Notes: generated from the letters alone by a model not told the origin. 64,000 nucleotides of DNA from an uncultured Clostridia bacterium (GCA_947627855.1 CANQXR010000008.1:1-64000), one strand, 5' to 3'. Shown: positions 8,531 to 45,248, counted from the first letter of the stretch. Numbers and translations: made by a program.

Positions 8531-8532
8531 TT

Positions 8533-9473: not shown

Positions 9474-9644
9474 CCCCAAAATCCGGTCGATCTCAAGCCG
9501 ATTTTTCCCTCTCACAAAAAATCCCGCAAATAACCGCCCTCCGCCACTCACCCCAAAAATCATCGAACGACTTTTTTTTAAATATATCTTGATTTTAAGC
9601 AGCTTTTGTGGTATCATAATTTTGAAAACAGCATAAACACTGTT
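9474..9644 (+). promoter_or_regulatory. CRISPR leader 1 with promoter
   Basis: A 171-bp leader directly before the first repeat. It contains TTGATT at 9589-9594, a 17-bp spacer and TATCAT at 9612-9617, a plausible vegetative promoter starting transcription ~20 bp before the first repeat. The whole segment recurs at 10224-10394 with about ten differences by eye. Confidence 0.7.
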
Positions 9645-9947: not shown

Positions 9948-9962
9948 TACAAAAGAGTATTA

Positions 9963-10014
9963 AAGCACAGCACATTCTGAAGTATGGAAGGCTTCGGGTG
10001 CTGTGCTTTTTTTG
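9963..10014 (+). terminator. Terminator of CRISPR array 1
   Basis: A perfect 11-bp stem (AAGCACAGCAC at 9963-9973 with GTGCTGTGCTT at 9998-10008) is followed by a T run. It ends the pre-crRNA. A near copy follows array 2. Confidence 0.8.
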
Positions 10015-11976: not shown

Positions 11977-12018
11977 TTTAATTCCTCCTTAAAAGTCTTA
12001 AAATTTTATTTGTGGTCA

Positions 12019-12480
12019 TAAACGAAGAACTTTGCCCGTAATCTGAGAAATCGTTTCTTCACCCTCCTTGCTTCTCTGTCTTGCTCATTGATTTTGCTTA
12101 CATATAAATATTAGACTTTTCGCTTAAAATTTTTCGGCTTTTTTAAGTTTTTTTAAAAATATTTTAGCCATCTGCGGTCTTAAACGAAAAGCTTTGCCCG
12201 CAATCTGAGAAATCGTTTCTTCACCCTCCTTGCTTCTCTGTCTTGCTCATTGATTTTGCTTACATATAAATATTAGACTTTTCGCTTAAAATTTTTCGGC
12301 TTTTTTAAGTTTTTTTTAAAAATATTTTAGCCATCTGCGGTCTTAAACGAAAAGCTTTGCCCGCAATCTGAGAAATCGTTTCATCGCCCTCCTTGATTCT
12401 CTGTCTTGCTCTTTGTTTTTGCTTACATATAAATATTAGTGTTTCCGTTTAAAATTTTTCGGCTTTTTAAAAAAATTTTC
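12019..12480. repeat. Three tandem copies of a ~162-bp repeat
   Basis: Units begin with TAAACGA at 12019, 12181 and 12344 (periods 162 and 163 bp). The third is partial and more diverged. On the minus strand each unit has AGGAGGG followed by a short basic frame (KRFLRLRAK), and units 2 and 3 also have a frame ending in MAKIFLKKLKKAEKF. Unit 3 has an ATG at the first frame; in units 1 and 2 it is a GTG. The array leads straight into the 211-residue gene. Confidence 0.8.
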
Positions 12481-16720: not shown

Positions 16721-16755
16721 AAAGGCGGAGCTGATTAACGGCTCCGCCTTTTTTC
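16721..16755. terminator. Strong convergent terminator
   Basis: AAAGGCGGAGC pairs with GCTCCGCCTTT around a 9-nt loop, followed by T6. It is flanked by A and T runs, so it can serve both the 350-residue gene and the helicase gene. Confidence 0.85.
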
Positions 16756-19570: not shown

Positions 19571-19582
19571 ATTTTCCCCCAC

Positions 19583-19870: not shown

Positions 19871-22732
19871 TTATTCAGCGTAGACCTCTGCTCCGTAATC
19901 GCCATTGTTGCTGCTGTCAACTTCACCGGAGACAGCGTCGCCTCCATCGGCAGGAACTTCAACTTCTTCAACATCTTCCTGCGGAGGTTCTTCCGGAGGC
20001 GGCTCAGGTTCTTCTATGTGCGATGGCGCATATATTATCGATATCCTACATGAATCGGATTCTCCTGTAGGCGATGTGGCTGTAATTACCGCCGTACCCT
20101 CATAGTCATAATTGGCCGTAATATATGCTTCATTGCCGTTTACCGATATCGAAACCAAAGGACCGTCTGTTTCCCAGCTTACGTTGGCATCACAGCTCGC
20201 CCTGACTACCGTAGATTCTCCGCCTGAAAGGCTCGATCTGTCAGATGAAACACTGACGGGATGCCTTATTTCCGGCTCTTCCCGTCCAACTTCGATCTCC
20301 ACATCAGGGTCATCAGGCATAACGGGAACATCCAAACTTTCAACTTCAATTATACACTCGTCTATAAGTCCGTTAATTGTGCTTGCAGTAACTACAAACC
20401 TGCCCTCTCTGTAGCAGTCAAGGGTTATTGTCCTTGTGTCGGAGGATATGCTCTTGCCTATAGAGCCATTTACACTCCACGATACTCTTGTATTGTCCGC
20501 AAACTCAGGATATACGTCAGCCGCTATGGTTACTTTGTCCCCCGGTTCTACATCTATTCTTGACTTGCTCAGAGTGATCCTTTCCGGCTCTATAACCTTT
20601 CTTTCCTCTTCTTCCTTTGGTTGAGTTATTCCTATCGGTGGTTGAGGTTCTGCCTCCTTTTTAGGCGGAAGAATATAGTCATGCTCAGATGGTGTGGGTG
20701 TGGGCGCAGGAGTAGGAGTGGGCTTAGGCTGCTCAGGCTTGCGTCCATTGCTTATTACGATGCTTACGCCTGAGTTTACAGAAACTGTTTTTCCTGCTGC
20801 CGGACTCTGAGATATTACCAATCCCTGCTTCACACTGTCGCTATACTCATAAGAAATTCCGCCCACGCTAAGACCTGCGGCCAGAATTTCTGATTTTGCA
20901 GCGCTTTCGCTGCTGTATTTTACATTGGGCACAGTTGCTTTTGTAGATTTTTTACCCTTACTTACTACAAAATTAATTCTTGTGCCTTCGTTTACCTCAG
21001 TGTTTATGGGATTCTGGCTTATAATAACACCCTTATCATATTTATCGCTGTATTCCTCCTTTACATAGCCTACAGCAAGCTTGCTCTTTGTTATACTTCC
21101 TGTAACAGAGGAGTATTTTTTGCCTACCCAGCTTGGAACCTTAACCTTATTTGTCTTGTCTATGACATAATTTTCTCCCGTAGAAACGTAGACAATAACG
21201 TTGGAGGACAGCTTGAATTCCTCATTTTCGCCGACCTCTTTGCCGTCAATTTCAATTTTTTCGATACTGCCCTTAATAAGCTTGTTTTCTGTTCCCTCAA
21301 CGCTGTTTACGTTGTAAAATCCCAGAACATCAAGCTCTGCTGCCACCTCGGTAAGGCTTCTTCCCTTGAATAAACCAAGGGAGGCGGTCTTTGCGCCCTT
21401 GCTCACTACAAGCATAATGTCCTTTTCGCCGGCTTTTTCTGCAGTGTTTACAGGCGTCTGTGCCACAACATAGTCTGCGTCTACCGTGTCACTGTAATAG
21501 GACTCTCCCATAGTCACCTCAAAACCATCTTTATCCAGAAGTTCTATGGCATATACATCCTTCTGACCGACTACATTTCTTACAATTGCATATCCATCGG
21601 GCAGCTTTGCCTGCTGCTTTATTACCTCTCCCCAATAATTAAGGTCTATAACCTTAAGCTTTATAAGGGCAAGAAAAACAACAACTATAAGTACGCTGAC
21701 TGAAACAAGGGGAGCCACGAATTTATACATCTTGCCCGTGTCGGTGTAAAGATTTCTCTCCTTTTTTCTTGTTACCTTTTTTCCTCCCAGAGCGTCAAGA
21801 AATTCCTGAGCATTGGCGGTTCTGTTTTCGGGGAGAATATTAAGAGCGTTAAGGAGGGCAATTTCATCATTCTTAGGCATCTGTACCCCTAATTTTGAAG
21901 GCGGCACAAGGTTGTCCCCTGTTCTTCTCTCCATAGCTTCGGGCGGTGTAATGCCCGTAATCAGCTTATAGAAAGTTGCGGCAAGGGCATATATGTCTGT
22001 CCACGGACCCTGATTGCCGTGGCTCCTGTACTGTTCTTCGGGGGCATATCCCGGCTTGAGAATTACGGAAAGGCTCTTTGAATGGGTCGTGGTTGCATAT
22101 CTTGCCGCACCAAAGTCCAGAAGCTTAAATTCTCCGCTGTCTGTAATAAATATGTTGTCAGGGGCTATGTCCCTGTGGATTATGCCGTCCTTATGTACTT
22201 CCTTAAGTATATAAAGCATTTCGACAATAATTTCCTTTGCTGTCGGATAGTCAAGAAATTTGTTTGCTTTGAGCATATCCTTAAGGGAAATACCCGAAAG
22301 AAATTCCATAACTATATATCCTGTGTTGTTTGTTATGAAGGTATCATAAATATCGACAATTCCCTTTATGCCATTGAATTTTGCCAGTCGCTGTGCTTCA
22401 TCTATAAAGCTTTTAAGACCGCTGGAAAACTGTTCTCCGGCTTCTCCTTTATAAATGGTAAGATTCTGGTCGCCATAGGCACGGGTTGCAAAATCACTGG
22501 GGAAATATTCCTTTACAGCCACCTTTCTTTCAAGCTGCAGGTCCCAGCCTATGTAGGTTATGCCAAAGCCGCCCTGACCTACACAGCAGCCTATCATATA
22601 TCTGCCTTCAAGTATGGAGCCGGGCACAATATGATAAAGCTCGGACGGCTTCTGATTATTGTCATAGCCGCAGTGAGGACACTTGCCCTGTTCCCCATCG
22701 TATTCCTTCATACATTTAAAACATCTTTCCAT
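19871..22732 (-). CDS. Transmembrane Ser/Thr kinase with PASTA and Ig-like domains
   Basis: 953 residues. Zinc ribbon (CFKCM...CPHCG, 4-18); kinase domain ~35-310 with GQGGFG, VAVKEYFPSD (catalytic Lys), HRDIAPDN and LLDFGAARY. One membrane helix (~335-358) is followed by about four PASTA-like repeats, a Pro-rich linker and two Ig-like domains, then an acidic tail. PASTA domains bind peptidoglycan or muropeptides in PknB/PrkC, so this is probably a wall-sensing kinase. The Ig additions are unusual. ATG 22732 with GAGGTG upstream is preferred over the in-frame ATG at 22756. It is the last gene of the island. The catalytic loop has Ala instead of Lys after HRDI. Confidence 0.9.
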   Translation of the reverse strand: MERCFKCMKEYDGEQGKCPHCGYDNNQKPSELYHIVPGSILEGRYMIGCCVGQGGFGITYIGWDLQLERKVAVKEYFPSDFATRAYGDQNLTIYKGEAGEQFSSGLKSFIDEAQRLAKFNGIKGIVDIYDTFITNNTGYIVMEFLSGISLKDMLKANKFLDYPTAKEIIVEMLYILKEVHKDGIIHRDIAPDNIFITDSGEFKLLDFGAARYATTTHSKSLSVILKPGYAPEEQYRSHGNQGPWTDIYALAATFYKLITGITPPEAMERRTGDNLVPPSKLGVQMPKNDEIALLNALNILPENRTANAQEFLDALGGKKVTRKKERNLYTDTGKMYKFVAPLVSVSVLIVVVFLALIKLKVIDLNYWGEVIKQQAKLPDGYAIVRNVVGQKDVYAIELLDKDGFEVTMGESYYSDTVDADYVVAQTPVNTAEKAGEKDIMLVVSKGAKTASLGLFKGRSLTEVAAELDVLGFYNVNSVEGTENKLIKGSIEKIEIDGKEVGENEEFKLSSNVIVYVSTGENYVIDKTNKVKVPSWVGKKYSSVTGSITKSKLAVGYVKEEYSDKYDKGVIISQNPINTEVNEGTRINFVVSKGKKSTKATVPNVKYSSESAAKSEILAAGLSVGGISYEYSDSVKQGLVISQSPAAGKTVSVNSGVSIVISNGRKPEQPKPTPTPAPTPTPSEHDYILPPKKEAEPQPPIGITQPKEEEERKVIEPERITLSKSRIDVEPGDKVTIAADVYPEFADNTRVSWSVNGSIGKSISSDTRTITLDCYREGRFVVTASTINGLIDECIIEVESLDVPVMPDDPDVEIEVGREEPEIRHPVSVSSDRSSLSGGESTVVRASCDANVSWETDGPLVSISVNGNEAYITANYDYEGTAVITATSPTGESDSCRISIIYAPSHIEEPEPPPEEPPQEDVEEVEVPADGGDAVSGEVDSSNNGDYGAEVYAE

Positions 22733-22780
22733 AGTTTCACCTCTTTGTGTACACAATTAAAACCAAAGCTCTTTACAATA

Positions 22781-24382
22781 TCAGTGAATAGGAGTGTCAT
22801 ACAACTCCGGAGGTGCCGGAGGCTCCCATTCAGGGGGCGGCGCAGGCTCACTCTCTTTTTCTTCTGACGGATCGGAATTTTGCGGCGCAGGCGTGTCTGC
22901 TGCAGTTTCTCCGGCATTGGCTGTCGCCTTGGGGGCAGCAGCCATAACTTCACCGGCAGGCTCTGTTTTTATATCTGATGAAGTCTTGTCTGAGCCGCTG
23001 TTGTTTGTGCTGCCTGCCGTGATATCCGTCTTGGGCTTGGCGCCGGTGTTGTTATTATTTGAATTTCCGGAATTATGATTTGTATTGGTTTTAGTCTTTT
23101 CCGCATTATTTGCATTTTCAGCAGATGCAGATTTCTGAGTAGCTTTCTCCGTTGAAGTCCGGCTTACTGTGGTTGTTTCAGTGGACGAAGTGCTTTCGGT
23201 GGAGGTTTCTTCATCAGCAGTGGTAGTCTGAGCTGCGGTAGTAGTCTCCTGTATTACGGTTGTCTGTGTTGTATTTTCCGTCACCACAGTGTCATTTTGC
23301 CCCTTGTTTATATAAAGAGCAGCCGCCGCAATAATCGACAATATACATATACCGAAGGTCGTCGCCAAAAGTACGGGAACAGCCTTTGTAAAGTCCGCCT
23401 TGTTTTCATTTCCCTTTCTCTTTGTGTTTTTGTTTTTAAGAGCGCCAAGAAACTCCCCCGCATCTTCATATCTGTCTTTGGGGCTTAGGTTCATAGCGTT
23501 CATAACGGCATTGTCAAAGCCTCTGTCGACCTTAATGCCCAGACCTCTTATGCTTATATTTTTCTTTCCGCTGCGGCGCTGGAGTACGGGGTAAGGATTT
23601 ACGCCTGTAATAAGCTTATAGCAAAGACAGCCCATGGAATACACATCGGAGCTTTTCGTGAGCACGCCGTTGCTGTCGATTGCTTCGGGAGGTGAATATA
23701 TGGGATTGTATATTTTAAGGTTTGCGGCATTTGTAAGGGCGCTGACTCCAAAATCTATAAACTTGAAGCCCCCATCCTCAGTAACAGCAATATGCTCAGG
23801 CGATATATTTCCGAGAACGATTCCGCTGCTGTGTATAGCTGCCAGTGTTTTTACAAGGTTTTTCGCAATAACACGGGAGAACTTTTCGTCATACTGACCG
23901 TTTTCGTTCAGTTCTTTTCCCAACGTGGAGTATTCTTCATACCGGCACACAGTATAGCAGGTGTTGTTGTCTACAAAGCAGTCTGTTATTCTTTCAATAC
24001 CTACTTTGCCCTCTTTGGTATCCGACAGTTTTTTCAGCGCCTCTATTTCGTTGATATACTCCCTTAGCCCGTTTCCGAAAAGGTTTGTTTTGAGATTCGT
24101 CTGAAACTGTATAAGATTGCTCTCTTTGCTTCTTAAAACGATCCCTTTTGGATAAAATTCATATATGAAAACCTTTTTGTCTTTCTTCAGGTCGAAGCCT
24201 ATATACTTTATATTTACATTGTCCTCATTTACAGCCTTGCCTACAATATATCTGTCAACAAGCTTTGTTTCCGTGCGGAGATGATATCTCTTTTCCGCCG
24301 GAGTTGAACTGAATGTGCCGCAATAAGGACATATTTTAAGATCATCTGCATATTCTCTCATACAGCCGGTACATCTTATCAT
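22781..24382 (-). CDS. Membrane-anchored pseudokinase
   Basis: 533 residues: zinc ribbon (CTGCM...CPYCG), kinase-like fold ~40-320, membrane helix ~340-365, then a Thr/Ser/Asn-rich low-complexity exterior. Key residues are missing. No glycine-rich loop is present, Tyr74 (VFIYEFYP) replaces the ATP-binding Lys, and LGNISPEH replaces HRD-x-x-P-x-N, so the catalytic Asp is Asn192. The DFG motif (210-212) and the SPPEA activation-segment end remain. The frame is intact and in operon with active kinases, so a scaffold or allosteric role is likely. The starting ATG has GAGGTTATTT upstream. Confidence 0.85.
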   Translation of the reverse strand: MIRCTGCMREYADDLKICPYCGTFSSTPAEKRYHLRTETKLVDRYIVGKAVNEDNVNIKYIGFDLKKDKKVFIYEFYPKGIVLRSKESNLIQFQTNLKTNLFGNGLREYINEIEALKKLSDTKEGKVGIERITDCFVDNNTCYTVCRYEEYSTLGKELNENGQYDEKFSRVIAKNLVKTLAAIHSSGIVLGNISPEHIAVTEDGGFKFIDFGVSALTNAANLKIYNPIYSPPEAIDSNGVLTKSSDVYSMGCLCYKLITGVNPYPVLQRRSGKKNISIRGLGIKVDRGFDNAVMNAMNLSPKDRYEDAGEFLGALKNKNTKRKGNENKADFTKAVPVLLATTFGICILSIIAAAALYINKGQNDTVVTENTTQTTVIQETTTAAQTTTADEETSTESTSSTETTTVSRTSTEKATQKSASAENANNAEKTKTNTNHNSGNSNNNNTGAKPKTDITAGSTNNSGSDKTSSDIKTEPAGEVMAAAPKATANAGETAADTPAPQNSDPSEEKESEPAPPPEWEPPAPPELYDTPIH

Positions 24383-24399
24383 AAATAACCTCCAGTCAT

Positions 24400-26733
24400 T
24401 TAGCTGCCTGTGACATCTGTCACGGGTACGGGTATAGGCACATCTTCGCCGCAGTAGTCATTATAGGCCTCTTCACTCAGCTTGTCGCCATCAAACTTGC
24501 TCTGACCTATAGCCACAATATCATTTCCTATGCTGCTTATAAATGAAAGATTGGGATTTACACTATCGGCATATTCCTTAATTATATCTTTGTTTATAGG
24601 AAGTGAGGCTCCCACTACGGAGTTTATATATTGCTGTCCATCGTCACTGAGAAGATATTCGGCGAATGCCCTTGCCAGAAGCTCGGAATTTTCGTCAAGC
24701 TCTGAATTAAAGGCTATCTCCGTGCAGAACCTTATGGCATAGCGTCCGTTGTCTGTGACGGGTATTGCGTCATAATTTCCGCCCAGGTAGTTGTTTACAT
24801 ATTCAAAAACAGAGGTGTCGCCTGCCATACACGCAAGCTGTCCCAGATAGAAATATTTGGAAACAGTAACGGCAGGATTAAACTCATTTTCCTCATATGT
24901 ATTTTTGAAACGGGAAATAAGCTTGACATTTTCACCACTTAACTGTGTTTTGTTTTCTCCCTCTCCCAAGGGCGAACCATACAGAGCCACAAGCTCTCCG
25001 AAAGCGCTTTCATCTATTCCGAAAGCTCTTGAAATGGTTTCAACACCCTTACTTGTGCTTGTGATTTTGCTTTCTCCCGCATATTTGTCCAGAGCCTCAA
25101 ACTGCTCAACAGAAGAAAACTCATCTGAAATCATATCGGGGGAAATGTTGTAGTCTGAGATAAGAGACTTATTCACATATACGACAGGGGAGTTAAAGCC
25201 CAAGGGAACAAGCTTTTTGTCGGGGTAATATTTTGCGTAGCTTTCCTCATCTATAAAATTAAGGGAGTCCCCCGAAAAGATATTTTCAATTTCATCAACA
25301 GCCTTGCACTTGTCGGAAATATCATTATAAACCCCCGCCACATAGAACATATCGGGAAGCTCATTCTTTTCGGCAGCCTCAAGAAGTGACTCTTCATAGC
25401 CTTCCTTTGAGTCAAATACAAGAATATTTGTATTTATATCGGCGTACTGCTTCATATAGTCCTTAAAGGCAGCCATAAGATTTTCATAAGCTTCCTTCTG
25501 TTTTTCGTACTGATCCGCCTTGTTTTCCATTACCTTACTTTTAAAGTCGTCAGGCAAATAAGACATTCCGGGGTTATAGTCTTTATTGTCCACATAAACC
25601 CACACTAAAAGGTCAGATTTGTCTTTTATATTTTCGTAAGGGTCAACCCTAAGATAATTATATATAAACACAACAAAAGCAATTGCGGCTATAAAGCAGG
25701 CTGCCGAAATACTTGCAAGAATGATCCTTTTTTTCTTTCTCTTTTTTATTTCTACATCAGGATATTCTATTTCATAATCACCCTGTATAGCGGCTATAAA
25801 TTCGTCCACCGACTTGAATCTGAATTCTGTTTCTATAGCCATAGCCTTCATTATGGATTTGTCAATTTCTACAGGCAGATCTATGCCAAGCTCACTTGGG
25901 CGCTTAAGCTTATCATCGGTCCGTCTGTCGGTTGATTCTTCGGGCTTAACGCCTGTTACAGCATAATACAGTGTTGCGCCCAATCCGTAGATATCTGTCC
26001 ACACGCCCTGTTTGCCGTTTGAGGCATACTGCTCGGGAGCGGCATAGCCGGGCTTTATAAACGCGGAAAGTGTTTTTTCACTGTGGACCGCCGAAAATCT
26101 TGCGCTGCCGAAGTCAAGAATTTTTACAACTCCGTCATTTGTTATTATAATGTTGTCAGGAGCTATGTCTCTGTGGAGTATTCCCTTTTCATGAACCTCT
26201 CCTATACCGTTTAAGAGGTCAAGAATTACAGCCGCAGCAACGTCTACAGTCATTTTTCCATTCTTCTCTATATAGTCCTTAAGGGAAATTCCGTCAAGAA
26301 ATTCCATAACATAATAAGCCGTATTGTTTTCTTCAAAATATCCGAAAACATTTACAATATTTGCACGCCCGTTAAATTGGGCAAGATTTTTTGCTTCGTC
26401 CAAAAATCTTTCAAGAGCTTCTCTGAAGTTTGTTTTTTCTTTTCCGTCAAAAACCAGAACCTCACTTGTGCCCGGCACTCTGTTTACAAGACCGGCAGGA
26501 TAAAATTCCTTCACCGCAACCACAGAGCCAAGCTTCATATCCCACGCCTTGTAGGTTATGCCAAAGCCGCCGAAGCCAAGCACAGTACCTATAAGATATC
26601 TTTCATTGAGAATTGTGCCCGGATAAAGATAATATTCCTGCTCAGGCAGGGTTCCCTTTACAAATCCGCAATGAGGGCATACGTCATATCCCCCATTGTC
26701 TTTAAAACAATTCAGGCAAATATTTTCAAACAT
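24400..26733 (-). CDS. Ser/Thr kinase fused to an extracellular solute-binding-like domain
   Basis: 777 residues. Zinc ribbon (7-23), kinase ~45-310 with GFGGFG, Lys75 in VAVKEFYP, HRDIAPDN, ILDFGSARF, and membrane helix ~341-363. The exterior (~375-745) resembles a family-1 ABC solute-binding protein: DLLVWVYVDN start, MFYVAGVYNDI, PLGFNSPVVYVNKSL and a late LARAFAEYLLSDDGQQYIN helix. A ligand-sensing kinase, for example for a sugar, is inferred. Binding proteins are normally separate lipoproteins, so the fusion is uncommon. GGAGGGG precedes ATG 26733; the GTG at 26739 is less likely. Confidence 0.85.
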   Translation of the reverse strand: MFENICLNCFKDNGGYDVCPHCGFVKGTLPEQEYYLYPGTILNERYLIGTVLGFGGFGITYKAWDMKLGSVVAVKEFYPAGLVNRVPGTSEVLVFDGKEKTNFREALERFLDEAKNLAQFNGRANIVNVFGYFEENNTAYYVMEFLDGISLKDYIEKNGKMTVDVAAAVILDLLNGIGEVHEKGILHRDIAPDNIIITNDGVVKILDFGSARFSAVHSEKTLSAFIKPGYAAPEQYASNGKQGVWTDIYGLGATLYYAVTGVKPEESTDRRTDDKLKRPSELGIDLPVEIDKSIMKAMAIETEFRFKSVDEFIAAIQGDYEIEYPDVEIKKRKKKRIILASISAACFIAAIAFVVFIYNYLRVDPYENIKDKSDLLVWVYVDNKDYNPGMSYLPDDFKSKVMENKADQYEKQKEAYENLMAAFKDYMKQYADINTNILVFDSKEGYEESLLEAAEKNELPDMFYVAGVYNDISDKCKAVDEIENIFSGDSLNFIDEESYAKYYPDKKLVPLGFNSPVVYVNKSLISDYNISPDMISDEFSSVEQFEALDKYAGESKITSTSKGVETISRAFGIDESAFGELVALYGSPLGEGENKTQLSGENVKLISRFKNTYEENEFNPAVTVSKYFYLGQLACMAGDTSVFEYVNNYLGGNYDAIPVTDNGRYAIRFCTEIAFNSELDENSELLARAFAEYLLSDDGQQYINSVVGASLPINKDIIKEYADSVNPNLSFISSIGNDIVAIGQSKFDGDKLSEEAYNDYCGEDVPIPVPVTDVTGS

Positions 26734-26794
26734 TTGCACCCCTCCTTAACAAAAACGGGTGCATAAGCAAGCCTATGCACCCATTTAAATATAA

Positions 26795-27817
26795 TCACAG
26801 CAGCTTGAACCTGTTGTTCATATTACCCAAATAAATGCTTGTACCCTTTGGAAGAGTTTTTGGAGTATTGGGCTTAAGTCTTTCCTTAGTGTCTGCAATA
26901 TAAGTGCCGTTTGAAGAATAGTCGGTTATGGTATAGTCTTTTGTAGATTTGTTATACCTTATGCCGCAGTGCTTTCTGCTTATATTGTCTGCTCCTTCGT
27001 TGATTACAATACTTGAAAAATAGGAATCTCTTCCTATAATCATTTCAAAATCAGACTCAACATCAAATACAGCGTCCTTATACATACCTGCTGTACACAC
27101 CATTTTTCCGGCATTTGTCTTAGGAACAATTTTTTTACCTGATCCGTTGGGGTCAATTACATTTCTAGGCACACATCTGTTGTCAAAAGCAGTTATAAAA
27201 TCGAATACGCCTGTGTAAATCTTGCTTAAGGAGATTATTCCCAGAGGAAGCCACCAGCCGAATAATATAAGAGGAATAAAGCCGCCTGTCAAGCATATTA
27301 TGCTAAGGAGTGCTGCAAGCCCTGCAGTAAGGTCCACAAGGGCAAAATGCTCGTTAAAATTAAAGCGTGCATAAAATTTACGGTTAAATCCGTAATTTAT
27401 AAAAAGGCATACTCCAAAGAAAGCAAGTACGATTATGTCAAATAAAATCGTCATTATCGTACTGCCTGACTCAAGAAAGCAGAAAAGTATAAAAAACAGA
27501 ACAAGCTTTATTATAGAAGCAACGCCTCCTATGAAAATCATTTTCCAGCGTGCTTCTCCTATCATATCAATTCTGTAAATCGTCCTTACAATAGGTATGT
27601 AGGCAAACCAGTCGTTGTTAAGACCTACTTTGCGCCCCTGAAACATATAAATATAGCTATAAACTATATAACATAATATTGCCACACCTATGCCTAAAAT
27701 AAAGCCTATAATATTATGAAAGGTAGCAAGCCCCCCTACAGTATTCATTATACCCGTGAGAGTGTCCATAAAGCCATTTAATTCATCAATTGCATTTCCG
27801 CCATAACCATAATACAT
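26795..27817 (-). CDS. Polytopic membrane protein with C-terminal FHA domain
   Basis: 340 residues. About five or six hydrophobic segments lie between residues ~35 and 205 (e.g. IGFILGIGVAILCYIVYSYI). A cytosolic FHA domain follows at ~250-340, with FEMIIGRD, ISRKHCGIRY and a YSSNGTYI strand, the phosphothreonine-binding residues of the family. It probably docks phosphorylated kinases or partners at the membrane. It lies 6 bp after the next FHA gene upstream in the operon, and ~60 bp before the solute-binding kinase. Confidence 0.8.
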   Translation of the reverse strand: MYYGYGGNAIDELNGFMDTLTGIMNTVGGLATFHNIIGFILGIGVAILCYIVYSYIYMFQGRKVGLNNDWFAYIPIVRTIYRIDMIGEARWKMIFIGGVASIIKLVLFFILFCFLESGSTIMTILFDIIVLAFFGVCLFINYGFNRKFYARFNFNEHFALVDLTAGLAALLSIICLTGGFIPLILFGWWLPLGIISLSKIYTGVFDFITAFDNRCVPRNVIDPNGSGKKIVPKTNAGKMVCTAGMYKDAVFDVESDFEMIIGRDSYFSSIVINEGADNISRKHCGIRYNKSTKDYTITDYSSNGTYIADTKERLKPNTPKTLPKGTSIYLGNMNNRFKLL

Positions 27818-27823
27818 TTTTAC

Positions 27824-28444
27824 TCACTCCTTTTTATTATTTCTTTTGTCCCACATAAAGCCGTCTTTTGAGCAGAAGGGAACAAACATAAGATCAGTTT
27901 CGCCTACAGATATAACATCGTTCAGCTTTAACTTCTGGGGTACAAGGACAACTTCATTATTTAAATAGCAAAGCTCCTTGGACTCTCCCGGCTGCACAAT
28001 AAAGGTACAGCTTTTATGGTCATAAACCACAACTCCGTGCTTTTCTCTTGAAACAGTGTTGTCGTGCTGGAGACAGATATCCATGGTCTTTGACCTGCCA
28101 ATAAAGTTTCTTCCCATTTTCAGTCTGAAGTCACAGCCAAGGTCAGGTCCTTCGGTGATTACAAGCCAGCCTACAACAGGCTCCGTTCCTATAGCCTGAC
28201 TTGAATATGAAATAGTTTTCTGGTCATCTCCGCTGCTGCCGCTTGTTTTTCCCGCATTTGAAACAGGAACCGTCACTGTCTCCGATGAAGCGGAAATTGA
28301 GAGCGGTGTCGTTACAACATCGTCAGGCTTTAACGGAACGGTAACGCTCTCCTTTGAAAAGCCGCTGGCCGACTGGCAATGAGGACAGACTTCATATCTG
28401 TCGCTGTCATAAAAATGACCGTTGCCGCATCTTTTTAAGTTCAT
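27824..28444 (-). CDS. FHA-domain adaptor with zinc-ribbon N-terminus
   Basis: 206 residues: CGNGH...CPHC zinc-ribbon-like start, a Ser/Thr-rich linker (~30-80) likely to be a phosphorylation target, and an FHA domain (~95-195) with GRNFIGRS and VSREKHGVVVY. The linker carries TVPLKPDDVVTTPLS and similar Thr clusters suitable for kinase action. It has no membrane segment. It is closely related in layout to the 171-residue FHA protein at 32609-33124, indicating duplication within the island. Confidence 0.85.
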   Translation of the reverse strand: MNLKRCGNGHFYDSDRYEVCPHCQSASGFSKESVTVPLKPDDVVTTPLSISASSETVTVPVSNAGKTSGSSGDDQKTISYSSQAIGTEPVVGWLVITEGPDLGCDFRLKMGRNFIGRSKTMDICLQHDNTVSREKHGVVVYDHKSCTFIVQPGESKELCYLNNEVVLVPQKLKLNDVISVGETDLMFVPFCSKDGFMWDKRNNKKE

Positions 28445-28503
28445 GAAATTATCATCCTTTCTTTTAAATTTATATATGCGAATGCTTTACATTAAAAGCA
28501 TAC

Positions 28504-29466
28504 TCATCTGTATGAAATAACAACAACGGTAGTATTGTCCTGACTTCCGTCATTTTTGTCAAAGGCAACTATCGGAAGATTTTCAGCAAGCTCCTTTGGA
28601 TTGCCGCTCATGCCCCTTACATACTCACAGATCTCTGTGTCTGTCATAACCTTTGTAAGACCGTCACTGCAAATAAGCACAATATCTCCCGGAAGAAGCG
28701 TAAAGGGAGTCTGGCTGAGGTCAATTATATCAAGCTCATTCATACCTATAAAGCTTATAAGCGCCTCTTTATTTGGCTCGTTCATAGCTTCTTCTCTTGT
28801 CATAGTTCCCTCCTTTATTTTCTGATTGAGAATATACATATAATTATGGTCGTTTGTAATCTGAATGATCTGATCATCCCTTATAATGTAAATTCTGCTG
28901 TCGCCTACGGAGGTCCAGTACATATAGTTGTTTACAAGAAAAACAAGAGACATTGTTGTGCCACACATTTCATTGCCGCAGTTTTCCTTGCCATACTTGT
29001 TTACGGCGTTGTTTGCATTTAATACAATTTCCCTCAGAAAAGCGGGCACGTCTGATTTGTCATCTTTTCTTATAAAGCTTTCATAGCCGTTTTTAATGCA
29101 GTTTACGGCAATTTTTCCCGCTGCCTCACCGGAGCTTAAGCCGCCCATACCATCACAGACTGCCGCTGCAACATACGACTTTTTTATGAGGTCAAACTCT
29201 CCGCTGCCGGACATATAATAAGAATCCTGCTGGTCGCTGCGGGTGCCTAAAATCTGAGAGCCGAAAACCTCTATTTTGTCGCTTTTGTCAGCTATATTTC
29301 CGTGGACAAGGGTTTTCAGGTCCTCAACCTGCGTTTCTATGAGCTTTTTTCTGCGCTGCCTTCTTCTTTCCCATACAGCCTCTCTTATTCTGCCGCAGAG
29401 CAGAACCACAAATATAATTGCCATTATAACAGCCAGAATTACAAGCATTTTTATGATTATATTCAT
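28504..29466 (-). CDS. Membrane-anchored PP2C-type phosphatase
   Basis: 320 residues. The N-terminal hydrophobic helix (~5-27, ILAVIMAIIFVVLLC) anchors a cytosolic PP2C domain. The metal and catalytic motifs are all present: RSDQQDSYY, VCDGMGGLSSGEAAG, SVGDSRIYII, LICSDGLTKV and final SQDNTTVVVI. It would reverse the kinases of this island. Its start lies just after the kinase-FHA stop. Confidence 0.9.
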   Translation of the reverse strand: MNIIIKMLVILAVIMAIIFVVLLCGRIREAVWERRRQRRKKLIETQVEDLKTLVHGNIADKSDKIEVFGSQILGTRSDQQDSYYMSGSGEFDLIKKSYVAAAVCDGMGGLSSGEAAGKIAVNCIKNGYESFIRKDDKSDVPAFLREIVLNANNAVNKYGKENCGNEMCGTTMSLVFLVNNYMYWTSVGDSRIYIIRDDQIIQITNDHNYMYILNQKIKEGTMTREEAMNEPNKEALISFIGMNELDIIDLSQTPFTLLPGDIVLICSDGLTKVMTDTEICEYVRGMSGNPKELAENLPIVAFDKNDGSQDNTTVVVISYR

Positions 29467-29467
29467 T

Positions 29468-30910
29468 TTATATTACCACCTTGAATTTGTATTTTGAAGA
29501 ATATACGTAAAACACATCCATTGACATAAGCTTGTATTTTACTCCGGAGGGTATTCTCAAACCGTTTGACAGGTAAGTTCCGTTTTCAGACCAGTCAGTA
29601 ATATAAAATTCCCTCTTCGCCGAATTTACCTCAACCACACAGTGCCGCCTGCTTATTTTTTCATCATTTATTACAATATGGGAGGTGCCGGGGTTTCTTC
29701 CGATAACAATTTCCCTTATATCGCTTATTATATAGCGACTTCCGTCATATGACTCTACATAAGAGTACCTTTTCTTTTTAACCGTATTGAAACCCTTGCC
29801 TTTGTTTGTAGGATTTCTTCTTTTGCGGTTTATCCTTTCCGCCGCTTTATTGTAATTTCTGTAATCACCGGTGTTGGCATATACGTTTGTACTGTCGGCA
29901 AAAACCTTATTTTCCACATTGTAATATTCGGTAGGAACATCTATAAATCTCTTGATGTTTCTTATATCGTCCAGAAATTCATCTAAGCTTTTCTGTCTTT
30001 TCGCATAGTCAAGATTAAGCGCTCTGTTTATTGCCACTTCAAGACCATAGTCTATTTCAGGCACAAAATTTCTTATAGGTATTATAGGTGTTCCGTTTAT
30101 TCTTTTATTAGCCTTGGGCAGCTTTGCCTTTGTAACAAGAGTATAGAATGTAGCCGCCAAAGAATATATGTCTGTCCAGGGACCTGCTACATTTGTTTTC
30201 ATATAAAGCTCCGGCGGAGAAAAACCCGGCTTAAGAACAAGCTTATCATCATTTCTGTTTGCCTTGCCGAAAAACCTTGCATTTCCGAAGTCTATGATTT
30301 TAATAAAACCATCGTTTCTCACAATTATATTGTTAGGGCTTATGTCCCTGTGTACTATGTTCCGGCTGTGAGCAGACTTAAGAGCCAAAGATGTTTCAAT
30401 AAGCATATCATAAGCCTTTTTGAGATTGCCGAAGGCATAATCTCCCAAAACCGGTCCGTTTACAAATTCCATTGTAAAATACAGAGTATTGTTTTCACTG
30501 AAGCAGTCATACATTTCCACAATATGAGGGGCTCTTCTGAGACTGACAAGAAAATTTGCTTCGTCCATAAAGCAGTCAAGCCCTTCGTCAAAAAGGATTT
30601 TATACTCAGCTGTCTTTGCTACAAGCTCATCACCCTCTATATCTCTGTAAACCATATTGCAGGGCACACATTCCTTTATGGCAATAATAAGGTTTTTTTC
30701 TATATCTATTGCCTTATAGATTATTCCGAAGCCTCCAATGCCCAGTACTCTGCCCAGAATATATCTGTTGTCAAGTATTTTGCCCGGAGCAAGAGAAAGC
30801 TCCGTCTCAATGTCTTTTTTATTGTCATATCCGCATTTTTCACAGACGTCATCTATGCTCAGTGCTTCAAAACAATTATGACAAAATCTTTCAGTATAAA
30901 TATTGCTCAT
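29468..30910 (-). CDS. Soluble Ser/Thr kinase with C-terminal FHA domain
   Basis: 480 residues: zinc ribbon (CHNCF...CEKCG, 10-27), kinase ~48-325 with GIGGFG, Lys79 in IAIKECVP, HRDISPNN, IIDFGNARF and SPPELY. There is a basic linker and an FHA domain (~395-475, IVIGRNPGTSHIVI, ISRRHCVVEV, WSENGTYLSNG). No membrane helix is seen. The FHA could bind its own phosphorylated linker or recruit phosphoproteins. The catalytic loop has Ser in place of the usual Lys. It lies 22 bp downstream of the VWA-FHA gene. Confidence 0.9.
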   Translation of the reverse strand: MSNIYTERFCHNCFEALSIDDVCEKCGYDNKKDIETELSLAPGKILDNRYILGRVLGIGGFGIIYKAIDIEKNLIIAIKECVPCNMVYRDIEGDELVAKTAEYKILFDEGLDCFMDEANFLVSLRRAPHIVEMYDCFSENNTLYFTMEFVNGPVLGDYAFGNLKKAYDMLIETSLALKSAHSRNIVHRDISPNNIIVRNDGFIKIIDFGNARFFGKANRNDDKLVLKPGFSPPELYMKTNVAGPWTDIYSLAATFYTLVTKAKLPKANKRINGTPIIPIRNFVPEIDYGLEVAINRALNLDYAKRQKSLDEFLDDIRNIKRFIDVPTEYYNVENKVFADSTNVYANTGDYRNYNKAAERINRKRRNPTNKGKGFNTVKKKRYSYVESYDGSRYIISDIREIVIGRNPGTSHIVINDEKISRRHCVVEVNSAKREFYITDWSENGTYLSNGLRIPSGVKYKLMSMDVFYVYSSKYKFKVVI

Positions 30911-30932
30911 ATAAATCTTTCCGTTCCTGCAT

Positions 30933-32615
30933 TTATTTGTTCATAAAAATAAATCTTTCATTTCCCGCTTCTATTACGTCTCCCTCCCTGAGCCTGTATT
31001 TGCCCGTCACCTTTACACCGTTTAAAAGAGTCCCGTTTGTAGAGCTTAAATTCATAACAGTAAATACATTGTCGTTTTCCTCTATTGCGAAATGCTGACG
31101 CGAAAGAAGAGGATCGTCAAAGGACAAATCACAGACACTGCTTCGTCCTACGATTATGCTCTTGTGCATTTTCATCTCTATTCTTTTGTTAAGACCTGAA
31201 GCGTTTGTAACAATAAGGCATATATTTGTTATTTCAGGAGTAATTATTCTTTCCTTATCTACCATATTGTCACGGAATACCATTTTCTTTTCGTGTATAA
31301 CTATTCCCTTTCGGCGGTTTATTACTATATAAGCTATAATTCCTGCCCCTGCAAGCATAATCAGCACAATAAACAGCCAATAAGACGCCACTGCCTCTCT
31401 CAGCATATAGGCTTCATAGGATATTCCATGAAATCTTTCGGAAATTTCTCCCCCGACTGCATTATGCTCCATACTGTTGTCTGTAATGTTTGGGCAGCTT
31501 ATGGAATACTCACCTGTAAAAATGCCGCTGCCAAAAACAAGATCAGCTGTGTTTGTATCTGCATTATAAGCCACGCCGTCGGGAGCCAGTTCGTGTATTT
31601 TATTGAGGGTTACTTTGAAATTGGCAGGATTATCTGCGCCTACCACGCTTTCACTGAATGTGACAGAAAGAGAATTTGCGCTTGAAAGCTTTAAGGAAAC
31701 CATCTGCGGAGCCAGCTCATCCTTTACCCAACCCTTTGAATAGAGCCTTTTTTCGAGGGAAAGCTGCTTGCCGTCTGATGAAAAATTAATAATAAGCTTT
31801 TCCCCATCTTCGGGAGTAAGATTATTTTTGCTTGACATAACAATAGCATAACCGGCTCTCGTTTTTTGTGTGATTTTTGCAAGGGCTGAGTCTGCTGTTT
31901 CGGACTGACACACCTCAATAAGTCCGGAGCTTTCTCTTACAAGCTGCCCGAATTTGTCTATGTATTCGCTTTCCATAGTTCCGAAAGCTGCGGCAAAAAG
32001 TGTAAGACCGGAGGTTCTGACATATTTTTCAACCTCCTCATAGGTATATCCGCCTACATTAAAATCGATTCCATCTGATATTATAATTACAATATTTCTT
32101 TCATTCGTCTTTACACGGCATATTTCGGAGGCTTTCTTTATTGCGTCAAAAAATACAGTGCCCTCTTTGTTGTTTATAAGGGTGTCAACGCTGCCTTTAA
32201 GCTCGTTTTTATCGCTGCTGTGTTCTGTCTTTATATCTATGTTTTCGCCAAATGCAATAAGAGACATTGTTTCATTTGCCTCCAGCTCGTCGATGCGGTT
32301 GTAAAGAGATGCCTTTATGGCGCTCATTTCAGCACCTGACATAGATGTGGATTCATCTACAAGATAAATATAATTTGTTGTGATTCCCGTTTCCTTTGCA
32401 CTGCATATTTTTTCAATACTCAGCTGTTCCTTTTCGAGGAGAGCCTCGGCGGTTAAGTTGTCGGTGTTGTCCGCAAAAAAATACTGAACAATTTCCGGCT
32501 TGCTGTAAATTGTGTCACACAAAGAAAAGCTGCTAAGTTCAGCCCCAAAAACCGGCATATTAATTAAAAAGGCAAAATTTAAAACAAGAAGAAAAAAGCC
32601 TAATTTCTTTACCAT
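30933..32615 (-). CDS. Exported VWA domain, membrane helix and cytosolic FHA domain
   Basis: 560 residues. Signal peptide (~1-25, LGFFLLVLNFAFLINM), a von Willebrand A domain (~80-255) with a complete MIDAS start D87-x-S89-x-S91, and a beta-rich region resembling a bacterial Ig fold. A membrane helix (~407-430) is followed by a C-terminal FHA domain (~480-556) with IIVGRSSVCDLSF, LLSRQHFAIE and SSTNGTLLNG. A ligand outside would be linked to phosphothreonine recognition inside. It overlaps the upstream FHA gene by 7 bp. Confidence 0.85.
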   Translation of the reverse strand: MVKKLGFFLLVLNFAFLINMPVFGAELSSFSLCDTIYSKPEIVQYFFADNTDNLTAEALLEKEQLSIEKICSAKETGITTNYIYLVDESTSMSGAEMSAIKASLYNRIDELEANETMSLIAFGENIDIKTEHSSDKNELKGSVDTLINNKEGTVFFDAIKKASEICRVKTNERNIVIIISDGIDFNVGGYTYEEVEKYVRTSGLTLFAAAFGTMESEYIDKFGQLVRESSGLIEVCQSETADSALAKITQKTRAGYAIVMSSKNNLTPEDGEKLIINFSSDGKQLSLEKRLYSKGWVKDELAPQMVSLKLSSANSLSVTFSESVVGADNPANFKVTLNKIHELAPDGVAYNADTNTADLVFGSGIFTGEYSISCPNITDNSMEHNAVGGEISERFHGISYEAYMLREAVASYWLFIVLIMLAGAGIIAYIVINRRKGIVIHEKKMVFRDNMVDKERIITPEITNICLIVTNASGLNKRIEMKMHKSIIVGRSSVCDLSFDDPLLSRQHFAIEENDNVFTVMNLSSTNGTLLNGVKVTGKYRLREGDVIEAGNERFIFMNK

Positions 32616-33124
32616 TTTTTATCCTCCCTGCAATAAGCCACAAAGTCAAATTTATAAGAGCCTATACTTATTTCATCATAATCCTTAAGTATATAAGGCT
32701 TGTCAATAGGACTGCCGTTTACATATATAGCTGCGCCCTCACCATTCATAATAATGAAAGAATTCTTTTTTGGCTCGTATATTATGCAGCCCTCATGCTT
32801 TCTGCTTATAGAGATGTCAGAGGGCAGATAAATATCATTTGTCATAGCTCTGCCTATAAAATTTCTTCCCGAATGTATTCTGAAATCTCTGCCCTTTTCA
32901 GATCCCTCCGTGCAGACAAGCCAGCCCACAACAGGGTCGCAGCCCGTCCTCTTGTATGCGAGGGCAACTGTTTTGCTGTCGTCAGATGGGGATTTAGCCT
33001 GAGAAAAAAGGGCTATAGTCCTTTCGTCAGAAGCATTGCTTTTTTCCGTTCTCATACACATGGGGCATTCGTCATATTTGGAATCATCATAATAATGTCC
33101 TTTGCTGCACTTTATAATTGCCAT
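32609..33124 (-). CDS. FHA-domain adaptor with zinc-ribbon N-terminus
   Basis: 171 residues: CSKGHYY...CPMC ribbon-like start, a Thr/Ser linker (DERTIALFS, DDSKTVALAY) and an FHA domain (~75-165) with RNFIGRAMTNDIYL, ISRKHEGCII and YVNGSPI. The (D/E)xxT(V/I)A repeats in the linker look like kinase target sites. It is encoded 10 bp after the first phosphatase gene and overlaps the VWA-FHA start. Confidence 0.85.
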   Translation of the reverse strand: MAIIKCSKGHYYDDSKYDECPMCMRTEKSNASDERTIALFSQAKSPSDDSKTVALAYKRTGCDPVVGWLVCTEGSEKGRDFRIHSGRNFIGRAMTNDIYLPSDISISRKHEGCIIYEPKKNSFIIMNGEGAAIYVNGSPIDKPYILKDYDEISIGSYKFDFVAYCREDKKW

Positions 33125-33134
33125 ATCTATCTCC

Positions 33135-33869
33135 CTATCTGCAAAAAACAGCTATTGCCGTATAATTATCACAATCGCCTGAGCCTACATTTTTAAGGAT
33201 CTCCTGCTCCATCATTCTGAGCCAATCATCGGGCGTTGCAGATTTCTTAAGAAGAGCAAGCATTCTCTTTTCGGTTATCATTTCCCAGAAGCCATCGGTG
33301 CAAAGAAGGAAGCTGTCATTTTTATTAAGCTGTATGCTTTTGTGGAGGGTATATTTGGGTGTATCCCATTCTGAACCCATAACCTTAAGAAGAATGTTTC
33401 TGTCCTCGTGAAAACGTATGTCCTTTTCCTTTATCTGCCTTGCAAGAACCATATTCTGCACAACACTGTGGTCAAGGGTTCTTTCTGCCATTTTGGGAAA
33501 AATGCCTGTACTGAACCTGTACAGCCTTGAATCTCCCACATGCGCCCATCTCGCCGTGTTATTGTTTATATAAAGCAAAACCTGAGTTGTTTTCATATCG
33601 TTTATAAGATTATTAAGTCTCTGTTCCGCCTCAAGATTTTTCTGTCCCTCCATAAAGCACCTGTCAAGGAGGGTTTCATCATCATTATGGATCTCTGCAA
33701 TATATGCACTTGTTTCAACAACAAGCCGTGAAGCCATATCGCCCATTTTGTGACCTCCCAGCCCGTCAGCAAGAGCAAACATATAGCGTTCCCCACTTTT
33801 CCAGATTTTAAAGCTGTCTTCGTTTCTTGCTCTTGTGCCAAGCCGTGACATTGCACCGTAGCTTATCAT
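33135..33869 (-). CDS. PP2C-type Ser/Thr protein phosphatase
   Basis: 244 residues, soluble. PP2C motifs: ARNEDSFKIW, ALADGLGGHKMGDMAS, HVGDSRLYRF, LLCTDGFWE and DCDNYTAIAVF. ATG 33869 is preferred because GAGAGGTG lies 6 nt upstream; the in-frame GTG at 33878 is the longer alternative. It is the first gene of the ten-gene operon. Stp/PrpC-type enzymes reverse Hanks-type kinases. Confidence 0.9.
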   Translation of the reverse strand: MISYGAMSRLGTRARNEDSFKIWKSGERYMFALADGLGGHKMGDMASRLVVETSAYIAEIHNDDETLLDRCFMEGQKNLEAEQRLNNLINDMKTTQVLLYINNNTARWAHVGDSRLYRFSTGIFPKMAERTLDHSVVQNMVLARQIKEKDIRFHEDRNILLKVMGSEWDTPKYTLHKSIQLNKNDSFLLCTDGFWEMITEKRMLALLKKSATPDDWLRMMEQEILKNVGSGDCDNYTAIAVFCR

Positions 33870-34876
33870 GCCCTTCACCTCTCAGATGGATTGCAATTGA
33901 ATTTACCTCTTTAGTATATAAACATAATATACGTATTTTTTTCCCTTATAAATGAGTATACTATTAAAGCAAACAAAAGTCAACAATAATTGACAAAAAG
34001 TCAATCAGTTTTTATAGCATAATTACATATAATATAGAAAAATATAATATTAAACTAAAAATTCCATTATATGAATTAATTATATATTTAAAAAGATATA
34101 TATAAGAATGTCGTCAAAGGTAATGTTTGCAAATTGACTTGGCATTGTGTGATTATTCTTTGGATTAACATTCTGTGACAATTTGCAAAAAATCTCACAC
34201 TGCCTGTTAAAGCCTATAACTATATAACAACCATACTTTCAGATCAGAAAAGCTTGGCTTTGCCTTAGCTCACAACGGAATTTTCTGATTTGAGTATCAC
34301 AACAACGCCCCTTTGCACATTCCATCTGAGGGCTGTCCGTGCGGCGATTTTGTCGTATTTTGTTCCTATTTCAGAAGAATGCAGGCATTGGAAGAATATA
34401 ATTACAACTGTAAATATCTCTAAAAAAACGGATATAGAGGCAAGCCACTGCTGCGGCGGTTGGATTTGCCTCCGGTTCAAATTCCATGAACATAACGGTC
34501 ACCGGATTTTAATTAAAACGTGGCAATTAAAGTTACAATTTTCAGAATATTGCAGATTTAAATAAGTTTCTTGACAAATTATAAAGAATATTTTATAATT
34601 AATACAGCAAAGAATATATTAATAAGAATTCTTATATTTTTCGGTTACTCCGGCATCCCTGAAATTTAATTGTTTTGGGTCATTTTATCGGACTGCCATA
34701 TAACATATTGCTCCGAGAAGCAATTTTTATTAATATGGTTCAAAATAAAAATCAGAATGTCTGTGGCACTGCAAACCTTTATATTTTATAAAAATGGAGT
34801 TAAATTTAATAAATAAATGAAAGGAGGAAAAATTTACTTTGTCGTTAGTTTCAGTTGATGCAAAGTAAAAAAAATT
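33870..34876. other. A/T-rich intergenic region upstream of the signalling island
   Basis: The region holds the island promoter zone (no clear -35/-10 pair chosen), an 11-bp inverted repeat TTTGCAAATTG / CAATTTGCAAA (34126-34136 and 34179-34189) and an aldo/keto reductase remnant. No intact gene is seen. Confidence 0.5.
34265..34390 (-). pseudogene. C-terminal remnant of an aldo/keto reductase
   Basis: The minus strand reads SSEIGTKYDKIAARTALRWN followed by VQRGVVVILKS. This matches the aldo/keto reductase segment with ALRW-(N/L)-QRGVVVIPKS. The rest of the enzyme is absent. Confidence 0.5.
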
Positions 34877-35089: not shown

Positions 35090-35126
35090 CCTGCCAATGA
35101 TGGTGAAGAAAAAAAGGAGGCAGATA

Positions 35127-36293
35127 ATGAGTAATTTAACCTTAAATAATGCTGACTATGGAACGGACAATAACGATGAGATTGCACTAAGGGTTTTTGA
35201 AGAACTAAATAATATTGCCAAAAAAACAGTACACGCCAACATTATGCTTGTAGGTAAAACAGGTGTGGGAAAAAGCACGCTTGTAAACAGTGTATTCAGA
35301 GCTGAGCTGGCAGAAACCGGCTCCGGTCATCCTGTAACGCAGCATCTCTGTAAGCTGACACATCCTGACGTTCCTGTTACCTTATATGATACCAAAGGAC
35401 TTGAACTTAAGGCTTCTATTCAGAAACAGATAGAAGACGAAATAATAGAGGTCATTAACAAATCCAGAATGGGTAATAATCCCGATGAGTATATTCACTG
35501 CATCTGGTATTGTGTAAATGCAAACGGTGACAGATTTGAGGAATCTGAAGAAGAGCTTATCAGAAAGCTTACTAATTCTATTGAAGTACCTGTTATTATC
35601 GTTGTCACACAATGTTTTTATAATGAAAAATCAAAGGAATTTGTTAATGCTTTGAAATCATATAATTTAGGCGCTCATGCTATAATTCCGGTTATGGCAA
35701 AAGAATATGAAGTAATAAAAGGTGTAACTATACCATCTTATAACCTTCCTAAATTAGTAAAGCAGACATGCATTTTATTGCCTGAAGCGGTGAAAAAGGG
35801 GTTTATTAATGCCCAAAAAGTAGATATAAATATGAAAACACAAGCAGCTAAAAATTATGCTAGGTTTTATATGACAGCAGCATTCGGAACAGGTTTCAGC
35901 CCTCTGCCTTTTTCGGATGCACCTGCTTTAATAGCAAATGAAGTAGTTATGCTTGCTCATATTACACATATATTTGGCTTAACTGCAGATAAAGCTTTCT
36001 TAAGCATGATTATATCTTCTTTGTTTGGAAGCGGTTCAGCTACAGTGGCAGGAAAGTTTATCGTTTCAAACTTAATCAAGTTTATTCCTTTGGTGGGAAC
36101 GGCAGCAGGAGGCGTAATCAGTGGCACAACAGCCGCATTATTGACATCAGCATTAGCAAGAACATATATAGCTTACTGTGCTAAGGTTATTGAAAGCATA
36201 AATAAAAATAAAGTTATTGACAAAAATGAAGCCCTTGATGAAATTAAAAAGATTTTTGAAAAAGAGCTTAAATCGGGTAACAAGGACATTTAA
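35127..36293 (+). CDS. GTPase with C-terminal DUF697-like helical domain
   Basis: 388 residues. G1 is VGKTGVGKSTLVNSVF (~43-58) and G3 is LYDTKGLEL. The G4 position reads VVTQCF, so the specificity Asp of TKxD is not obvious. The C-terminal ~170 residues are hydrophobic and glycine/alanine-rich (VSNLIKFIPLVGTAAGGVIS), like the DUF697/YcjF membrane-associated domain. AAAAAGGAGGCAGATA fixes the ATG at 35127. The nearest match is the dynamin/TrmE-Era superfamily of membrane GTPases. It lies upstream and divergent from the kinase island, and a functional link is not shown. Confidence 0.75.
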   Translation: MSNLTLNNADYGTDNNDEIALRVFEELNNIAKKTVHANIMLVGKTGVGKSTLVNSVFRAELAETGSGHPVTQHLCKLTHPDVPVTLYDTKGLELKASIQKQIEDEIIEVINKSRMGNNPDEYIHCIWYCVNANGDRFEESEEELIRKLTNSIEVPVIIVVTQCFYNEKSKEFVNALKSYNLGAHAIIPVMAKEYEVIKGVTIPSYNLPKLVKQTCILLPEAVKKGFINAQKVDINMKTQAAKNYARFYMTAAFGTGFSPLPFSDAPALIANEVVMLAHITHIFGLTADKAFLSMIISSLFGSGSATVAGKFIVSNLIKFIPLVGTAAGGVISGTTAALLTSALARTYIAYCAKVIESINKNKVIDKNEALDEIKKIFEKELKSGNKDI

Positions 36294-43924: not shown

Positions 43925-43944
43925 GTTAAGTCCAATGGGTATCG

Positions 43945-45231: not shown

Positions 45232-45248
45232 ATCACATTCCTCCATTC

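Follow-up and report, generated by a model that had tools for sequence, protein, structure and literature searches.

The 64,000-nucleotide stretch of an uncultured Clostridia bacterium analysed here (GCA_947627855.1 CANQXR010000008.1:1-64000, termed the window) carries on its minus strand, at 19871-33878 (probable upstream end 33869), an island of ten genes for Ser/Thr phospho-signalling, delineated by open reading frame (ORF) finding, Pfam searches and transmembrane (TM) prediction. The island is a stand-alone variant of the phospho-control sets known from type VII secretion system (T7SS) and Tad loci. The explanation that we favour, with a probability of roughly 55%, is that it is an enlarged, free-standing branch of a portable cassette for phosphothreonine control, with a GarA-like mechanism. 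As judged from sequence comparison, the core of this cassette sits in fixed order beside T7SS, Tad-type or FHA-ABC (ATP-binding cassette) genes in other Clostridia, and the island consists of this core together with a second ribbon-FHA protein, a VWA-TM-FHA protein, a polytopic FHA protein, a kinase-FHA fusion and a pseudokinase, with no machine adjoining. The ten genes, numbered from the upstream end, are as follows.

33135..33878 (likely ATG at 33869), minus strand: g1, soluble PP2C of 247 aa (Pfam PP2C_2 1e-15; PP2C motifs present; G001 ortholog 64% identical)
32609..33124, minus strand: g2, ribbon-FHA adaptor of 171 aa (FHA 7e-11; C-x2-GH...CPxC ribbon; linker residues T36 and T52 in T-phi-x-phi, phi being hydrophobic)
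30933..32615, minus strand: g3, signal/TM, VWA ectodomain, TM and cytosolic FHA domain, 560 aa (Pfam VWA and FHA; metal-ion-dependent adhesion site (MIDAS) DESTS; orthologs aligned)
29468..30910, minus strand: g4, ribbon, active kinase and FHA domain without a TM segment, 480 aa (Pkinase 4e-32, FHA 7e-14; catalytic motifs intact)
28504..29466, minus strand: g5, membrane-anchored PP2C of 320 aa (PP2C 1e-15; single N-terminal TM segment)
27824..28444, minus strand: g6, ribbon-FHA adaptor of 206 aa (FHA 6e-8; model nearest the OdhI/GarA FHA; linker residues T35, T56/58 and T77)
26795..27817, minus strand: g7, polytopic membrane protein with five predicted TM segments and a C-terminal FHA domain, 340 aa (FHA 3e-11; orthologs aligned)
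24400..26739 (likely ATG at 26733), minus strand: g8, ribbon, active kinase, TM and family-1 solute-binding-protein-like ectodomain, 779 aa (Pkinase 1e-35; ectodomain model Z 24.5 to UgpB, 347 residues)
22781..24382, minus strand: g9, ribbon, pseudokinase, TM and Ser/Thr-rich tail, 533 aa (Gly loop, catalytic Lys and Asp lost)
19871..22756 (likely ATG at 22732), minus strand: g10, ribbon, active kinase, TM, three PASTA domains and C-terminal extracellular region, 961 aa (Pkinase 2e-30, PASTA 3e-29)

An initial annotation of this DNA had described a co-directional and nearly gapless ten-gene operon, and the ORFs bore this out, with all ten genes in one direction, intergenic gaps of -7 to +59 bp and a long upstream region; the start sites of g1, g8 and g10 were reassigned from ortholog starts. 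Pfam returned PP2C domains in g1 and g5 and FHA domains in g2, g3, g4, g6 and g7, in agreement with the two phosphatases and five FHA proteins described before, as well as the kinase fold in g4, g8, g9 and g10, VWA in g3 and three PASTA domains in g10. The FHA signature motifs (GR, SRxH or SREK, and the following Asn) were kept in all five FHA proteins. The earlier account of one kinase-FHA fusion and two further kinases also stood, with the correction that g4 is cytosolic and that g8 and g10 are the membrane kinases. Promoter-like and terminator-like patterns were commoner than in shuffled sequence, yet non-specific, and no Rfam match was obtained at gathering thresholds across 14000-46000.

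Recurrence of the gene order in other genomes was a check raised by the initial annotation. All ten genes were found in identical order in two congeners, G001 and G006 (in the latter split across two contigs), with per-gene identities of 33-66%; the island is thus not a one-off, and its arrangement goes beyond chance. In two genomes of another family (G281 and G297), seven of the ten genes were present in order, namely g1, a ribbon-FHA gene, g3, g5, g6, g7 and g8, the g5 PP2C of both having been located by tblastn, and in G297 the seven were followed by g10-like kinases. Most of the set was also present, rearranged, in G106. A survey of the genus placed the island in three of nine genomes (the source genome, G001 and G006), while in G003 pieces of another set were present and in G008 ribbon-FHA, trypsin-FHA and PP2C genes lay at the end of a contig. 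The island is accessory. A scan of genome contigs with the VWA-FHA alignment returned only the two congeners, G106 (as CALWBZ010000032) and, in metagenome-assembled genomes of Bacteroidia/Bacteroidales, two weak matches to VWA.

Of 392 genomes of the order that were searched, 79 had EssC and 45 matched the ribbon-FHA profile. Relatives share a core set in fixed order: PP2C (g1), PP2C (g5), ribbon-FHA (g6), ribbon-kinase with a solute-binding protein (SBP) domain (g8) and ribbon-kinase-PASTA (g10). This core directly adjoined EssC/WXG100 genes in five genomes (G289, G313, G324, G329 and G091, the last without a detected g1). In G366 and G528 its neighbours were Tad-type genes, in G685 an FHA-ABC exporter, and in G202 and G710 no machine was recognised within the sequence seen around it. 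The initial annotation had proposed a self-contained relay without the usual secretion genes in its flanks, to be refuted by ESX/T6SS or division genes consistently next to it. The recurring multi-input set held up, but the refuting observation was in part made, as the shorter version lies beside T7SS (five cases), Tad-type (two) and FHA-ABC (one) genes; G001 and G006, with the complete island, had neither EssC nor WXG100 nor a genuine T2SSE ATPase. Because the shorter set adjoins these machines, and because a T7SS is encoded elsewhere in the source genome, we regard the island as a branch of a family of machine-regulating modules. In a kinase tree, a T7SS-linked group was resolved within the g8-type (97/93) and within the g10-type (100/97) kinases, and a concatenated tree of g1, g5, g6, g8 and g10 separated the stand-alone sets from the machine-linked ones (99/98), G366 and G202 falling among the latter. 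Related FHA/PP2C sets with a trypsin-FHA membrane protein, possibly another type of output, were seen at six further loci (L036, L073, L075, L083, L100 and L101), most of them with a ribbon-FHA gene.

No secretion machine was recognised among the ORFs flanking the island or the scanned flank proteins in the window, and the earlier statement that no output module lies in the flanks thus holds at this locus. Neither EssC (genome-wide, at E 1e-40) nor WXG100 was found in G001 and G006 (98% complete), and both were likewise not found genome-wide in G106 and G281; G297, which has the stand-alone set, carries WXG100 genes on other contigs. Genome-wide searches for the T2SSE ATPase gave only fragments of 18-26 bits in the source genome (G000), G001 and G006, against three matches of 166-198 bits in G366, and the island differs from a Tad/type IV pilus regulator in that no genuine T2SSE-type ATPase occurs in the source genome. 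Contig C1 of the source genome does carry a T7SS-like locus with an EssC-like ATPase, a LytTR regulator, three WXG100 genes, an FHA gene, two PP2Cs and an RCC1-fused kinase, a phospho-set that is separate from the island. This contig (131,780 bases; L028, L029) reads as an apparent perfect palindrome about its centre, with 0 mismatches in 19,218 mirrored bases, which is probably an assembly artefact, so that its two T7SS copies are likely one.

The C1 locus raises the alternative that the island is a detached regulator of this T7SS, acting in trans on EssC/WXG100 secretion. Such a role would fit with the T7SS genes of C1 (EssC-like ATPase, three WXG100), with the core cassette adjoining T7SS genes in five relatives, and with the published T7SS variants that contain a kinase, a PPM phosphatase, vWA and FHA (PMC11217815). 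We nevertheless consider it unlikely, in that G001 and G006 keep the ten-gene island without EssC or WXG100, the T7SS of the source genome already has an adjoining FHA protein, two PP2Cs and a kinase of its own, and the kinases and phosphatases of the stand-alone sets branch apart from those linked to a T7SS. The T7SSc-T7SSj loci of Gram-positive bacteria include among their components a membrane Ser/Thr kinase, a PPM phosphatase, FHA and vWA proteins (PMC11217815). The island likewise brings together a membrane Ser/Thr kinase, a PPM phosphatase and FHA proteins by Pfam, but it does not belong to this group, because EssC (TsxC) and WXG100 were not recognised at the locus, nor genome-wide in G001 and G006. 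A text search of the main text of PMC11217815 found no mention of zinc, PASTA or 'substrate-binding'.

The GarA-like part of the preferred reading, a phosphothreonine cassette in stand-alone form, draws on the ribbon-FHA linkers. The g6 linker was predicted to be disordered (low pLDDT, the predicted local distance difference test), and the nearest PDB folds to the g6 FHA model were OdhI and GarA (Foldseek); g2 scored 28.7 bits against the NCBIfam OdhI model, with its cut-off of 200, and is not a member. The motif T-[VILM]-x-[hydrophobic] was present in 22 of 27 distinct ribbon-FHA linkers, against 4.7 +/- 1.9 expected from shuffles (maximum 11, n=2000), figures not to be read as a probability. 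It was usually preceded by acidic residues, and searches in which the Thr was swapped gave 6 for Ser, 8 for Ala, 8 for Lys, 4 for Gly and 2 for Gln. Five further ribbon-FHA sequences, from outside the set of 27, all carried the motif, read by eye, shortly N-terminal to the FHA domain, and by position g2 and g6 were the only ones of the ten island proteins with it in an interdomain linker. In GarA, OdhI and DgcB the N-terminal tail is bound by the FHA domain of the same protein; in DgcB, the pT+3 position is hydrophobic and occupies a pocket (PMC6733907). By analogy, the linker sites would resemble these self-binding phosphothreonine tails, and the motif indirectly favours FHA-linker pairing.

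Candidate kinases for these sites lie in the same operon. The VAIK Lys, HRD Asp and DFG motifs were retained in g4, g8 and g10. In contrast, g9 reads VFIY (VAIK Lys to Tyr) and LGN (HRD Asp to Asn) and has no Gly loop, and since the copy in the congener G001 shows the same losses, g9 is a pseudokinase, as had been suggested; the kinase tree placed it within the g10 lineage (98/92). The initial annotation had further proposed a zinc ribbon shared by kinases and adaptors as a putative docking module. Ribbons do occur in the kinases and in the two FHA adaptors, but they are not the same ribbon, because the kinase pattern is C-x2-C...C-x2-C-G (CEKC in g4), with Cys invariant in 19 aligned relatives (C8, C11, C21 and C24 in g8), whereas that of g2 and g6 is C-x2-GH...CP-x-C, with three Cys and a near-invariant His. 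Zinc binding by the latter is putative, from the Cys/His pattern. In G106 a ribbon-TM protein of 113 aa without a kinase domain stands between g10 and g8, at the place of g9, which suggests that the ribbon plays a role of its own.

Two kinases carry candidate sensor ectodomains, and g3 adds a VWA domain with an intact MIDAS (DESTS). No Pfam domain was found in the g8 ectodomain, and phmmer against PDB gave marginal matches only; its family-1 SBP fold was detected by structure comparison alone. The AlphaFold model (mean pLDDT 74, predicted template modelling score 0.78) aligned in a VIA structure comparison with M. tuberculosis UgpB at Z 24.5 over 347 residues and with a cyclic maltosyl-maltose binding protein at Z 24.5 over 341 residues. 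The g8 ectodomain is thus predicted to be a complete family-1 solute-binding protein, for which, given the fold, a sugar or glycan is the likely ligand, and the 'solute' input named in the initial annotation gains from this prediction.

The PASTA domains of g10 invite comparison with PrkC, Stk1 and IreK, and the island could be envisaged as a PrkC/IreK-like wall-stress module for envelope homeostasis that duplicates the housekeeping PASTA kinase and PP2C. With these systems g10 shares the order kinase, TM and PASTA and nearby PP2C genes, its best NCBIfam match is Stk1/PknB, and PASTA kinases work in cell-wall homeostasis (IreK, PMC10765036). However, g10 reached 278.9 bits against a Stk1 cut-off of 450 (NF033483) and differs in its N-terminal zinc ribbon, C-terminal extracellular extension and gene neighbourhood; a separate 706-aa kinase lies beside a 245-aa PP2C on contig C13, in an apparent rlmN-prpC-prkC-rsgA order judged by gene lengths only; and the island is patchy among congeners. 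We therefore regard such a role as rather unlikely.

Under the preferred reading of a stand-alone phosphothreonine cassette, g8 would bind an extracellular solute, most likely a sugar or glycan, and g10 would bind the cell wall through PASTA. By analogy with GarA, these kinases, once activated, would phosphorylate Thr in the flexible linkers of g2 and g6, and the phosphothreonine would be caught either by the protein's own FHA domain, giving the closed state known from GarA, OdhI and DgcB, or by the FHA domains of g3, g4 and g7, so that capture would assemble or release a membrane complex. The soluble PP2C (g1) and the membrane PP2C (g5) would reset the switch, and the inactive g9 may serve as a scaffold or brake. 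Most likely, the membrane readers g3 and g7 would deliver the output in trans, by controlling protein-protein contacts at the envelope and not an adjacent machine.

Several points weigh against this reading. The stand-alone branch is known from only six genomes in the samples searched, and the T7SS of the source genome is a possible partner in trans. The linker sequences are kin by descent, so that the shuffle test overstates their independence; several linkers have more than one T-phi-x-phi site, and the motif could serve in docking and not as a substrate. Finally, the mean pLDDT of 74 applies to the very model from which the g8 fold was read.

More tentatively, and with somewhat less than even confidence, we suggest that Clostridia share a swappable phosphothreonine controller, in which a fixed core (a sugar-SBP kinase, a PASTA kinase, a GarA-like ribbon-FHA switch and two PP2Cs) would combine nutrient and wall signals and be coupled to different surface machines (a T7SS, a Tad-type pilus or an ABC exporter), and that the stand-alone branch has acquired membrane FHA/VWA readers of its own as the output. 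The conservation of the core next to T7SS, Tad-type and FHA-ABC genes hints at nutrient/wall input shared by several surface machines of Clostridia. Since one cassette holds an SBP-like domain fused to a kinase, a PASTA kinase and adaptors with predicted phospho-sites, it names a stimulus, a substrate site and a reader that can be tested. No description of this set was found in the open-licence literature on FHA, PP2C, kinases and T7SS.

Two further known systems come close. In the PknG-GlnX-GlnH-GarA/OdhI pathway of Actinobacteria, an extracellular SBP controls the Ser/Thr kinase PknG, which often has a rubredoxin-like domain and phosphorylates Thr residues that precede an FHA domain (PMC6069109, PMC8546545). 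The island would be analogous in its solute-binding protein, Ser/Thr kinase and Thr N-terminal to FHA, but g8 fuses SBP, TM and kinase in one chain, and the FHA adaptors g2 and g6 have a ribbon and T-phi-x-phi linker sites, without an ETTS motif or a known enzyme target. In ArnA-ArnB of Sulfolobus, a zinc-finger-FHA protein and a vWA protein under Ser/Thr phosphorylation control a surface machine (PMC6509490), which is reminiscent of g2/g6, with their zinc-finger-like ribbon and FHA domain, paired with the vWA protein g3. ArnA, however, has a four-Cys RanBP2-type finger in contrast to the three Cys and near-invariant His of g2/g6, the vWA protein g3 is membrane-anchored with an FHA domain of its own, and the island operon includes kinases and phosphatases. 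By membership tests the island belongs to neither system.

The neighbourhood of the island suggests one further alternative, a signalling cluster for phage defence, given Cas10/RAMP/Cas6 genes at 1.2-9.3 kb, UvrD-PDDEXK at 16.8-19.6 kb, a TIR-like protein at 46.2 kb and matches of the island kinases to PADLOC kinase models. Those matches are to generic kinase folds, and NCBIfam MADS6 stayed far under its cut-off; moreover, the flanks in G001, which include a polysaccharide flippase, share no non-island protein with the window (E 1e-6), and a defence role is highly improbable. When a shared non-island gene was sought in the flanks of the stand-alone sets, the only candidate was a GLUG-containing protein resembling one in the kinase cluster of G297 (L118:13281-15083), which is too little to call an output. 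In the window the GLUG protein adjoins a 2339-aa protein (36905-45246) with C-terminal S-layer-homology-like repeats, seen by eye. In G297, a 6241-aa ORF with a C-terminal TM segment (L119:221-18946) lies upstream of the phospho-cluster on the same strand.

Directly downstream of the island, the window encodes a fusion of a UvrD-type helicase with a PD-(D/E)XK/Cas4-like nuclease (16754-19582), and on the other side a GTPase (MMR_HSR1/AIG1/DUF697; 35097-36293) is divergent from it over a 1.2-kb gap. A type III CRISPR-Cas locus (Cas10 palm, RAMPs and Cas6) occupies 1197-9965 and includes a repeat array (9645-9965), accompanied by a diverged repeat at 10478 and by flanking blocks that are duplicated, and a TIR (CAP12-like) protein, a weak match just under the Pfam cut-off, lies at 46194-47204. 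A tandem repeat of 163 nt, in three copies that are 78-90% alike, was found at 11964-12451.

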